From the NCBI RefSeq assembly GCF_008386505.1, contig NZ_VUNZ01000001.1:1977937-2041936 (forward strand): DNA of 64,000 nt, in the 5' to 3' direction. The DNA is from Chryseobacterium sediminis (lineage in GTDB: Bacteria > Bacteroidota > Bacteroidia > Flavobacteriales > Weeksellaceae). Under the pieces are notes generated by a model, which did not search any database, was not told the origin of the DNA, and was given only the letters and a program-made list of their open reading frames with translations. A program made the translations under genes and the position numbers. Positions 26,773-30,466 of the stretch are shown piece by piece. The first letter of the stretch is position 1. Each line of letters starts with the position of its first letter.

Positions 26773-28581
26773 TTAATTTTCTTTGAAAGTATTCACAAGC
26801 TTATCGAGATTAAGGCTGCGGGCTGATGCATCAAAAATTTCACGGTAAGTACCTTCTTTACTATAAAGTTCATCATGAGTGCCATTTTCTACTACTCTTC
26901 CTTTTTTCATCACATAAATGATATCGGAATCCAGGATTTGTGAAAGGGAATGAGAAATGATGACCACAGTTCTTCCTTCTTTTATTGCATCCAGAGAATT
27001 CTTGATCTGCTCGGTGGCAATGGCATCAAGGCTAGCTGTAGGTTCATCCAGAAAGATAATCGGAGGATTTTTCAGAAACAATCTGGCAATGGCAATTCTC
27101 TGTTGTTGTCCACCGGAAAGCTGAGTAGCATCATGTTGATATTGATCCGGAAGATCCATAATCTGTTCATGCAGATACGCTTTTTTTGCAGCTTCCTGAA
27201 TTTCTTCAAAACTGGCATTCATATCTCCATAACGGATATTATCTTCTATACTTCCCTGAAAGATGTGATTTCTCTGAAGTACCAGACCAAGGTCACTTCT
27301 CAGAAAAGTATTGTCAAATTCATTAAGGTTTACTCCGTCCAGAAGAATTTCTCCGGAATCAGGAAAATAAAATTTACACAAAAGATTAATGATCGTTGAC
27401 TTTCCTGCACCGCTCAGCCCTACCAAAGCCGTGGTTTTTCCGTTTTCAATTTTCATGGAAACATCATGTAAGGCCTTTGTACCGTTAGGATAAGTAAAAT
27501 CAATATTTTTCAATTCAAAAGTTCCTTTGATTTCTTTTTCCACAAAGGTTCCGTTCGATTCCGTTTCATCATCTGCATTCAGGATATCAAAATAGCCTTC
27601 AGCATAGATCATCGCATCATTCATATCATCATAAATCCTGTGAAGCTGGCGGATAGGTGCAGAAACATTGTTGAAAAGCATAATATGAAGCATGATTGCA
27701 CCGATAGTCATTTGCTGATCAAGAACAAGATAAACAGTTAAAAGAATGATCAAAACCACTCCGAACTGCTCAATAAATGTTTTTAAACCATCATAAATAA
27801 AATTGGTTCTCCTTGTGATCATCTGGCTTTCCATAAGCTCCATCTGAAGATCATATTGTTTTTTCCCTTCAAATTTTTCACGGACAAAACTTTTAATGAC
27901 CATAATGGAATTGATCAGGTTCAAAAGTCCGAAAGTCTTTTTTTCTCTCTGATTTCTAAGCTGACGGCGTACTCCATTCAGTTTTTTTGCCTGCAGGGAA
28001 CTGATGTAGAAATAAATGGGAACGATAATCGTAGAAACAAGTCCCACATACACATTCTGCATATACATAATGATCAGCGCAATAATAGCATTAGAAAAAA
28101 GTGGCAGAATATCAATAAAAAAATTCTGTACCAGTTTTGTCAGACTTTCTATACCACGGTCTATCCTGATCTGTAATTTTCCGGATTCATGGTTTTCATC
28201 GTTAAAATAAGCTACTCTATAGGTTAAAATCTTATCAATAGCCGACTGAGCCAGCACAGAACTCACATTGATCCTGATCTTTTCGCCATAAAATTTCTGT
28301 CCGAAATTGATGAAAATATTCAGAAGTTCTTTTCCGAGTAAAATAATTGAAATGATGATAAGAATATGAATTCCCTCTGTCATGGGATGAGGAAGATGGG
28401 TAAGCTTGGTAACCTCATCTACCGTATATTTCAGAACAATAGGGTTTACCTGTGCTGCCAAAGCGCCCAGAAAAGTAAGAAACAGGGTTCCGTAGATCAT
28501 TAATCGGTAAGGTCTGATGAATGGGACAAGCTGCTTATAAATTCCGAACAAAGTAACTGTTCTGTTAAAAGGTTTAGCCAT
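26773..28581 (-). CDS. ABC transporter, fused permease and ATP-binding protein
   Basis: A 602-residue half-transporter. I place the start at 28581 (MAKPFNRTV). Upstream in-frame codons at 28590 and 28617 are possible, but the latter is TTG and lies inside the lptB terminator. The membrane domain of six helices covers about 20-310. The nucleotide-binding domain shows Walker A GLSGAGKST, signature LSGGQQQR, Walker B IIFLDEPTAS and the H-loop in IISHSLSQI. It resembles lipid or multidrug exporters of the MsbA/LmrA group. It has no C39 peptidase domain, so it is not a typical double-glycine peptide exporter. Confidence 0.9.
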   Translation of the reverse strand: MAKPFNRTVTLFGIYKQLVPFIRPYRLMIYGTLFLTFLGALAAQVNPIVLKYTVDEVTKLTHLPHPMTEGIHILIIISIILLGKELLNIFINFGQKFYGEKIRINVSSVLAQSAIDKILTYRVAYFNDENHESGKLQIRIDRGIESLTKLVQNFFIDILPLFSNAIIALIIMYMQNVYVGLVSTIIVPIYFYISSLQAKKLNGVRRQLRNQREKKTFGLLNLINSIMVIKSFVREKFEGKKQYDLQMELMESQMITRRTNFIYDGLKTFIEQFGVVLIILLTVYLVLDQQMTIGAIMLHIMLFNNVSAPIRQLHRIYDDMNDAMIYAEGYFDILNADDETESNGTFVEKEIKGTFELKNIDFTYPNGTKALHDVSMKIENGKTTALVGLSGAGKSTIINLLCKFYFPDSGEILLDGVNLNEFDNTFLRSDLGLVLQRNHIFQGSIEDNIRYGDMNASFEEIQEAAKKAYLHEQIMDLPDQYQHDATQLSGGQQQRIAIARLFLKNPPIIFLDEPTASLDAIATEQIKNSLDAIKEGRTVVIISHSLSQILDSDIIYVMKKGRVVENGTHDELYSKEGTYREIFDASARSLNLDKLVNTFKEN

Positions 28582-28599
28582 AGAAATCATTTTAAATGA

Positions 28600-28635
28600 A
28601 AAACGTACCGCTTTCAAAAGAAAAAGGTACGTTTT
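28600..28635 (-). terminator. Terminator after lptB
   Basis: A 10-bp perfect stem (28600-28609 with 28626-28635) is followed on the minus strand by TTTTT and more T-rich sequence. It separates lptB from the ABC exporter. Confidence 0.75.
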
Positions 28636-28668: not shown

Positions 28669-29730
28669 TTATCCTTCAAACACATATGTTGTAAGATAGT
28701 GCAGTTCTTTTGTGCTGGCTTCTTTAGACTCTGCTTCTGCCTGTTCCAGAGAATATTGGGAATTGATTTCTTTTTTCTGGAAAATAAATGAGTTGTTGGC
28801 ATTCTTATCTATAACTTCATCAAAGATATGCTTAATTTCAGCGTTTCCTAGTGAAGCAAAACTGATATCTTCAAAACCGTACATCCGTCTCAAATCATCA
28901 AACTGACTAAAATTTTCACTGACAAATGCCTGCAGCTGTGCTTTGGAATCAAAGTTACCAGCCCAGATATTATAAGCGTATTTCTTCTTTTTAGGCTTAT
29001 CTAAAATACTTTGATACACGAAGTTTTCACCCAGATAAGCTTCTCTTACCTGTGGATCATTGGCAAGATCTTCCGGAAGTCCTTCTTTCAGGATCTTTCC
29101 TTCAAACATAATATAGGTTTTGTTGGTGATAGCCAACGTCTGCTGTACGTTGTGGTCGGTAATCAGAATTCCGATATTTTTATCTACAAGGCTTCTTACA
29201 ATTTTCTGAATATCTTCAACAGCAATAGGGTCTACCCCTGCGAAAGGCTCATCCAAAAGAATAAAGTTCGGGCTTGTAGCAAGGCAGCGTGCAATTTCTG
29301 TTCTACGCCTTTCACCCCCGGAAAGAAGATCTCCTCTGTTTTTACGGACATGCTGTAAAGAAAATTCTTCAATCAGTTCATCACATTTGATTTGCTGCTC
29401 ACGTTTTGAAAGCTTGGTCAGCTGCAATACTCCCATAATGTTTTCTTCCACGGAAAGTTTTCTGAAAACGGAAGCTTCCTGAGCCAGATACCCGATTCCC
29501 TTTTGGGCTCTTCGGTACATGGCATCCGTAGTAATCTCCTGTTTATCCAGGAAAATTTTTCCTGAAGTGGGCTTAACCAACCCTACGATCATATAAAACG
29601 ATGTGGTTTTCCCTGCTCCGTTCGGACCTAGCAAACCAACAATTTCTCCCTGTTGAACCTGTACAGAAACGCCTTTTACAACTTTTTTAGGACCATATTC
29701 CTTGATTAAGTTTTCTCCTCGTAAAATCAT
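28669..29730 (-). CDS. lptB: LPS export ABC transporter ATP-binding protein LptB with C-terminal extension
   Basis: A 353-residue protein. Residues 1-240 match LptB: Walker A GPNGAGKTT (35-43), signature LLSGGERRR (135-143), Walker B FILLDEP (156-162), H-loop TDHNV (191-195), and the ending AYLGENF. LptB powers lipopolysaccharide extraction from the inner membrane with LptF/G/C. The family normally ends near 240. Here residues 241-353 add a charged linker and a compact domain starting YAYNIWAGNFDSKAQLQAF, which resembles Imm22-type immunity domains by eye. A possible role is regulation or interaction. Two overlapping -7-like boxes lie just upstream. Confidence 0.9.
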   Translation of the reverse strand: MILRGENLIKEYGPKKVVKGVSVQVQQGEIVGLLGPNGAGKTTSFYMIVGLVKPTSGKIFLDKQEITTDAMYRRAQKGIGYLAQEASVFRKLSVEENIMGVLQLTKLSKREQQIKCDELIEEFSLQHVRKNRGDLLSGGERRRTEIARCLATSPNFILLDEPFAGVDPIAVEDIQKIVRSLVDKNIGILITDHNVQQTLAITNKTYIMFEGKILKEGLPEDLANDPQVREAYLGENFVYQSILDKPKKKKYAYNIWAGNFDSKAQLQAFVSENFSQFDDLRRMYGFEDISFASLGNAEIKHIFDEVIDKNANNSFIFQKKEINSQYSLEQAEAESKEASTKELHYLTTYVFEG

Positions 29731-29883: not shown

Positions 29884-30177
29884 ATGGAAAATTACGGTTA
29901 CACAAAAACAGAAAATGTACAAAACCAGCAAAGCAATGTTCCTTACCGTTCGGAAAAGAAAATTCCTGCGGCTTTATTGGGAATTCTTGTAGGCTGGCTG
30001 GCTTTAAATAAGTTTTATCTGGGTTACACGAAAGAAGGAATCATTCAGTTGGTTCTGAATGTTGTTACTTTAGGAGCGGCTTCTGTTATCCCTTTTATTG
30101 AAGGTATTTTGTATCTTTTTATGAGTGATAAACAGTTTGATGATACATACGTCTACGGGAAAAAAGGGTGGCTATAA
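29884..30177 (+). CDS. TM2 domain-containing protein
   Basis: A 97-residue membrane protein. A polar N-terminus of about 30 residues is followed by two transmembrane helices joined by a short turn (AALLGILVGWLALNKFYLGY and VVTLGAASVIPFIEGILYLF), the TM2 domain layout. The NKFYLG turn and the following basic residues are typical. TM2 proteins have no firmly assigned molecular function in bacteria. It stands alone, diverges from lptB and is followed by a hairpin terminator. Confidence 0.85.
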   Translation: MENYGYTKTENVQNQQSNVPYRSEKKIPAALLGILVGWLALNKFYLGYTKEGIIQLVLNVVTLGAASVIPFIEGILYLFMSDKQFDDTYVYGKKGWL

Positions 30178-30209: not shown

Positions 30210-30237
30210 ATAGGCTGTTCTTATTTGAACAGCCTAT
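30210..30237 (+). terminator. Terminator after the TM2 gene, possibly bidirectional
   Basis: An 11-bp stem (30210-30220 with 30227-30237) and a 6-nt loop. The plus-strand tail is T-rich. The minus side is less so, but it could also end the small peptide transcript. Confidence 0.7.
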
Positions 30238-30257: not shown

Positions 30258-30404
30258 TTAATCCGGCGGACAAGCTAAATGATTAATTGTACACGGATGC
30301 CAGATTCCCTTGCACCACGTTCCACAATTTGGATCATCAATAATCACTTCTCCTCCTTTGATTTCCTTCAATTGATTTCTTTCAATCTTTTTAAGATTTC
30401 TCAT
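30258..30404 (-). CDS. Bacteriocin-like double-glycine leader peptide
   Basis: A 48-residue ORF. The first 18 residues, MRNLKKIERNQLKEIKGG, match the double-glycine leader pattern of class II bacteriocin-like peptides, including a family of Chryseobacterium peptides that begin MKNLKKL...LKxIxGG. The mature part (EVIIDDPNCGTWCKGIWHPC, then TINHLACPPD) has four cysteines, two tryptophans and a Pro-rich tail. Such a peptide would be cut after GG by a C39 peptidase ABC exporter. No exporter or immunity gene adjoins it. A TAnnTTTG box about 55 nt upstream supports transcription. Toxin, signal or other role is unknown. Confidence 0.75.
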   Translation of the reverse strand: MRNLKKIERNQLKEIKGGEVIIDDPNCGTWCKGIWHPCTINHLACPPD

Positions 30405-30458
30405 AAATAAATTCTTTTGATGTTTTAATTATTTTCGTTTCTCGAAATTAGCTTTACT

Positions 30459-30466
30459 CAAAAGTA
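30459..30466 (-). promoter_or_regulatory. -7 promoter element for the double-glycine peptide
   Basis: On the minus strand this reads TACTTTTG (TAnnTTTG), 54 nt ahead of the start codon at 30404. Confidence 0.5.

Follow-up and report, generated by a model that had tools for sequence, protein, structure and literature searches.

Among described systems, the bacteroidetocins offer the closest comparison with the locus analysed here. According to the accessible parts of the respective reports, these peptides act on BamA (PMC8546649), carry a leader of 15–16 residues ending in GG in front of a core of 42–48 residues, and are encoded next to a C39 exporter, a transmembrane protein and, in most cases, a thiol oxidoreductase (PMC6671954). 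From Chryseobacterium itself, chryseobasin, a RiPP, is described in the accessible part of its report as having a terminal CPACGMG motif (PMC10214503), and a gene-cluster survey of Flavobacteriaceae and Weeksellaceae presents many Chryseobacterium RiPP families; the leader_Chryseo family considered below was not met in the accessible part of that survey (PMC10734526). Literature searches on the leader_Chryseo family found an exporter or a function in no title or abstract among the matches listed, and searches on Chryseobacterium double-glycine or bacteriocin peptides and on the cassette proteins described below gave titles and abstracts that, among the matches listed, did not treat the family. 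In the prochlorosins, many scattered and diverse precursors share one conserved leader and a common machinery, as would be the case in the family considered here. Unlike the prochlorosins, this family implies no LanM-type modification, and predicted disulfides take the place of thioethers.

The window, by which we mean the whole 64-kb stretch of the Chryseobacterium sediminis genome that was analysed, contains a precursor peptide gene of 48 codons plus stop (30258..30404, minus strand), exactly where an earlier note made from the sequence alone had placed a short minus-strand open reading frame (ORF) with a double-glycine leader and four cysteines. The 18-residue leader (M1–G18, 30351..30404, minus strand) is MRNLKKIERNQLKEIKGG, and the predicted mature peptide of 30 residues (30261..30350, minus strand), which would be released by cleavage after the GG, contains Cys27, Cys31, Cys38, and Cys45. 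This predicted core is acidic, with a charge of −3.0 at pH 7 and a pI of 4.8, and it includes two Thr and no Ser residues; its calculated average mass is 3348.8 Da in the reduced form and would be about 3344.8 Da with two disulfides. The NCBIfam model NF047798 (leader_Chryseo, "bacteriocin-like protein") scored 30.8 bits over residues 1–18 (cut-off 23.5), so that peptide and model have the leader in common from end to end; the model spans the leader alone and is silent on core, exporter, and function. The earlier statement that families of such peptides are known in Chryseobacterium and that their function is unproven holds on both counts. NF047792 (CCPGW family putative bacteriocin), whose leader resembles that of the window peptide, gave 15.5 bits over residues 1–19, far under its cut-off of 80, while Pfam PF10439 (class II bacteriocin with double-glycine leader) gave 12.1 bits, below its gathering score of 27.1, and NF033383 fell far below its own cut-off. 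The CPACGMG motif of chryseobasin is absent from the window peptide. Comparison with solved structures gave a best E of 1.2, which is chance level, and structure prediction with AlphaFold yielded no usable model (mean pLDDT 56, pTM 0.26). A search of plasmids and phages returned zero matches and thus no sign of mobility there.

When named genomes were scanned with the window peptide, 16 loci were returned, ten of which were full-length or nearly so at 77–100% identity and all labelled Chryseobacterium; three were partial, and three were other or chance matches. Across 173 genomes of the genus, matches at E 1e-5 were present in 49, which sorted by identity and place into 22 intact orthologues, three remnants, and otherwise paralogues. 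The remnants comprised G054 (interrupted by a stop), G082 (leader absent), and G169 (partial), the status of G054 and G169 being judged from the match table alone. The peptide was 100% identical in seven genomes, our own included, and its four cysteines were invariant in all 22 intact orthologues. Over the 21 distinct intact orthologue sequences, pS was 0.530 and pN 0.093, giving a pN/pS of 0.175 (leader 0.116, core 0.207), and the median pairwise dN/dS was 0.08. This set represents 21 of the 22 intact orthologues; that of G113 (L094), in which a duplicated stretch extends the leader to 26 residues including the GG, was omitted. Selection on the gene is strongly purifying. The ORF is a genuine gene, given the combination of an above-cut-off leader match, genus-wide orthologues, and these two ratios, which is more than chance would produce. 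The earlier note had proposed a search for the leader in Chryseobacterium genomes and had said that its reading would fall if the ORF or the leader were absent from related genomes or if coding constraint were lacking; ORF and leader are both conserved, and the constraint is strong.

The gene is flanked upstream by hemB (ALAD, Pfam PF00490; 30551..31540, minus strand) and faces a convergent gene for a TM2-domain protein (29884..30177, plus strand). Further downstream lie a conserved gene for an ABC ATPase, putatively LptB-like (28669..29730, minus strand), and, 1.6 kb from the peptide gene, an ABC exporter without a peptidase domain (ABC_membrane + ABC_tran; 26773..28617, minus strand). The order hemB–peptide–TM2–ABC ATPase was kept in 13 of 14 named loci, three of them with a partial peptide; hemB is a conserved upstream neighbour in the same number, and the fourteenth locus (L024) carries another paralogue. 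Since the TM2 gene was kept in the three named loci in which the peptide is partial (L019–L021), it is not tied to the peptide and is unlikely to be an immunity gene. None of the neighbours identified resembles an immunity gene.

Both flanking signals in the earlier note were recovered. The promoter-like TAnnTTTG box reads TACTTTTG (30459..30466, minus strand), and such a box occurred within 90 nt of the start in 17 of the 22 intact orthologues, including the one in the window. When the leader peptides of our own genome were inspected, 12 of 41 had TAnnTTTG within 150 nt, whereas 200 mononucleotide shuffles averaged 4.0 and never exceeded 10; this is an enrichment and not a rule, and we rejected the box as a feature common to the whole family. 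The downstream hairpin (30210..30237, minus strand) is terminator-like, with an 11-bp stem and a 6-nt loop followed by a T-rich stretch, and has a folding energy of −17.5 kcal/mol, with a z of −7.0 relative to dinucleotide-shuffled sequences. Perfect hairpins of 8–14 bp were present within 90 nt past the stop in 18 of the 22 intact orthologues (own included). Also in the 5' untranslated region lies a short inverted repeat (TTTCG-N5-CGAAA; 30433..30447, minus strand), which among the orthologues only the closer ones share.

The window peptide is one member of a large set. NF047798 gave 51 hits in our own genome at E 10, of which 30 were over the cut-off; 41 of the 51 were translated, and the family figures rest on these 41. 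Their leaders are similar, their cores range from 26 to 76 residues, and 37 of them have four or six cysteines. Core charge was −1 or below in 27 and +1 or above in two. Leader peptides were found in 160 of the 173 genus genomes, with up to 46 per genome; these counts are lower bounds, as at most 49 candidates were scored per genome, whereas scoring was exhaustive for the 13 genomes that gave no match. Two tandem arrays of five members each were observed in our own genome (L065, G000:C6:75299-76308; L066, G000:C1:2262271-2263282), both distant from the three C39 exporters described next.

The earlier note had seen no peptidase exporter near the gene, had left the export route open, and had suggested looking for C39 ABC exporters elsewhere. 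Our own genome contains three C39 peptidase matches over cut-off, all outside the window, and one of them lies beside the nearest paralogue of the window peptide; the absence of an adjacent C39 exporter thus stands, while the route is less open than it was, a likely exporter now being nameable. This closest own-genome paralogue, P0004 (64 aa), shows 52% identity over 48 residues (E 5.8e-14) and is located on contig C10, 72 nt from the exporter gene. The genes there run on one strand in the order VKOR-thioredoxin fusion (P0003), C39 ABC exporter (P0002, the candidate exporter, G000:C10:105057-107249), peptide P0004, and HlyD adaptor (P0005), which we refer to as the VKOR cassette. A radical SAM/SPASM protein is encoded at the locus of the second C39 exporter, and lanthipeptide-type dehydratase and cyclase-like proteins at that of the third. 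Double-glycine precursors at these two loci have leaders of about 28–31 residues; in the radical-SAM cluster, the assigned precursor is 7 kb from the exporter, which makes the pairing loose. A profile of the 18-residue leader picked out P0004 at the VKOR cassette locus and gave no match within the 20 kb surrounding each of the two other C39 exporters. The lanthipeptide-type/C39 locus also holds a tandem run of four near-identical precursors whose core is rich in Cys and Gly (L060:16703-17571, minus strand).

Cysteine counts point to disulfide bonding in the family. None of the 41 catalogued leader peptides has a cysteine within residues 1–18, and the cysteine count is even in 40 of them. With the peptides of 20 other loci added, the number was even in 101 of 104 (odd in three), and after thinning of cores alike at ≥45% it was even in 64 of 65 (odd in one), for a p of 1.8e-18 under the assumptions that cores less than 45% alike are independent and that parity is a coin toss. 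P0004 shares the spacing C-x3-C-x6-C-x6-C with the window peptide and has two further cysteines, Cys26 and Cys61, both of which are missing from the window peptide; their joint absence fits what would be expected if that pair bonds. From cysteine parity, the comparison with P0004, and the VKOR-thioredoxin protein, the mature window peptide is likely to contain two disulfides.

On this evidence we regard it as quite likely that the product of the window gene is a precursor from which a small disulfide-bonded peptide is made and secreted, with export in trans through the VKOR cassette, and the peptide is probably one of some forty small Cys-rich peptides processed by one shared machine. The leader would be recognised by the C39 domain of the candidate exporter, encoded away from the window, and the precursor would be cut after Gly17-Gly18 in the course of export. 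The 30-residue core would then leave the cell aided by the HlyD adaptor of the cassette, the VKOR-thioredoxin fusion would oxidise the four cysteines to two disulfides, and a single exporter would serve some forty precursors dispersed over the chromosome. For the window peptide itself, we infer cleavage, trans export, disulfides, and the outer-membrane route. The assignment to the VKOR cassette was made mainly because the nearest paralogue lies inside it and the leader profile is silent at the other two C39 loci. C39 domains are sometimes promiscuous, and the radical SAM/SPASM and lanthipeptide-type systems are both present in the same genome, so that either might export or modify the window peptide; we consider this improbable, as the precursors at those loci carry different and longer leaders, the nearest paralogue sits in the VKOR cassette, and a core with so few Thr and no Ser offers little for lanthionine formation. 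Still less credible is a decaying relic that has lost expression. The remnants in G054, G082, and G169 and the partial matches in L019–L021 are what such decay would leave, but 22 intact copies among 173 genomes, a pN/pS of 0.175, conserved cysteines, and a promoter-like box and hairpin around the gene all argue against it. Linking leader_Chryseo to the cassette turns an orphan list of "bacteriocin-like" proteins into a testable one-exporter system.

To view this link across the genus, we compared the distributions of cassette and leader peptides. A VKOR protein match at E 1e-20 was present in 162 of the 173 genomes and P0004-like peptides in 42, with other cores in cassettes elsewhere; the cassette peptide thus turns over between genomes. 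Twenty-one cassette loci were inspected, namely our own and 20 chosen for an orphan without P0004, absence of P0004, or leader hits close by. Seventeen of them had at least one leader peptide and four had none; among the 64 peptides, which were called with a profile derived from 32 leaders of our own genome, 53 lay between cassette genes. In L181, L185, and L186, a cassette gene ran off the end of the stretch or was only partly matched. VKOR protein and leader peptides occurred together in 159 genomes, VKOR alone in three, peptides alone in one, and neither in ten, for a naive Fisher p of 6e-13. On a tree of 30 of the 173 genomes, including all of those without VKOR protein or peptides, three independent pairs agreed, none disagreed, and two tied (sign test p 0.25); with relatedness taken into account, the association thus falls short of significance. 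All 25 genomes with an orthologue or remnant of the window peptide have the VKOR protein, which is weak evidence given the base rate of 162/173. Searches for the exporter itself covered 20 genomes. All over-cut-off leader peptides of G086 (three) and G106 (one) lay no more than 7 kb from a homologue of the exporter, the match in G106 lacking the first 96 residues and with them most of the peptidase part. G069 had four leader peptides with no VKOR match at E 1e-20 and no exporter match at E 1e-120. The exporter was present at 87–90% identity in G004, G030, G089, and G137, which had zero leader peptides over the cut-off; the VKOR protein was absent in G004 and gave only a weak match in G030.

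The proposed window system and the bacteroidetocins, as the latter appear in the accessible part of their description, are alike in combining a small four-Cys double-glycine peptide, a C39 ABC exporter, and a thiol oxidoreductase (PMC6671954). Bacteroidetocins have at least two cysteines and a disulfide-bonded mature form; the window peptide has four cysteines, and disulfides in it are predicted from cysteine parity. Compared with what the same accessible part reports for bacteroidetocins, the window gene has no adjoining C39 exporter and the core is shorter and acidic (PMC6671954), and the presumed cassette and its genome further differ in having an HlyD gene and dozens of precursors. The window peptide is made much like the bacteroidetocins, yet by the features compared (gene place, leader, core length, and charge) it is not a member of that group.

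The role of the peptide outside the cell is judged with less assurance, and the gradings that follow are judgements. Some form of competition with related bacteria appears the likeliest, although we would not call it probable, and 27 of the 41 family cores at −1 or below, as opposed to two at +1 or above, as well as neighbours unlike immunity genes, speak against it. The larger part of this grading is taken up by a strict bacteriocin, that is, a bacteroidetocin-like killer of related Bacteroidota with self-protection through target variation and no immunity gene, which we propose only tentatively. It gains from the similarity of its production genes to those reported in the accessible part of the bacteroidetocin study (PMC6671954), and it loses from the acidic core (−3.0, against +2 and +6 for two bacteroidetocins in the same source), the leader of 18 rather than 15–16 residues, and the occurrence of a near-identical peptide in many species at a fixed locus. 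Signalling comes second, as a rather unlikely alternative in which cells of the producing species sense the peptide as an extracellular signal or pheromone. An acidic core, a stable sequence, and a fixed place in a housekeeping locus could belong to a signal as well, and the strong purifying selection, the seven identical copies (own included), and the gene's own promoter-like box and terminator-like hairpin fall in with such a role; set against this, the identified neighbours (hemB, TM2 domain, ABC ATPase, and ABC exporter) include no receptor or regulator, and some forty diverse relatives per genome would need many receptors. A role other than antagonism or signalling seems somewhat less likely still.

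The upstream regions of 8 of the 41 leader peptides share an element, spotted by eye, that corresponds to the Rfam family DUF805b (RF02914). Our own genome contains 20 DUF805b matches at E 0.01, 12 of them over the gathering score; eight, five of which exceed that score, immediately precede leader peptides. The element precedes P0004, the cassette peptide, and the eight are found at L058:9006-9038 (minus strand) and seven further places in this genome. One further match precedes another Cys-rich peptide, and of the other 11 the weakest has no convincing gene behind it while the rest precede proteins that, by reading of translations, include caspase-like and trypsin-like ones. In cassette loci of other genomes (n = 18, including L172–L188), all 22 DUF805b matches over the gathering score sit 17–24 nt before a double-glycine-type peptide, 19 of these peptides being recognised by regular expression and three by eye, one of the three with a different leader. 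The ten genomes without VKOR protein and leader peptides have one to five DUF805b matches each, and those examined precede other proteins; the element is thus not confined to the leader-peptide set. No DUF805b was found upstream of the window gene even at E 10, and a text search of the literature returned no paper on DUF805b, the eight matches listed for DUF805 looking unrelated by title. A known cis-regulatory RNA class seems to govern part of the secreted-peptide set. Taken as a whole, these results may, tentatively, describe one near-universal oxidative exporter (VKOR-thioredoxin, C39 ABC, HlyD) that serves some forty peptides per cell with one leader and unrelated cores, a venom-like repertoire switched in part by DUF805b, of which the window peptide would be an anciently fixed, separately promoted, and signal-like member. 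The genes directly behind DUF805b elements (L242–L252 in our own genome, L253–L261 in others) encode, with names given by reading, small proteins (about 90 residues) that open with a signal-like stretch, tandem caspase-like and trypsin-like proteins, a tail-collar-like protein, and a membrane protein.
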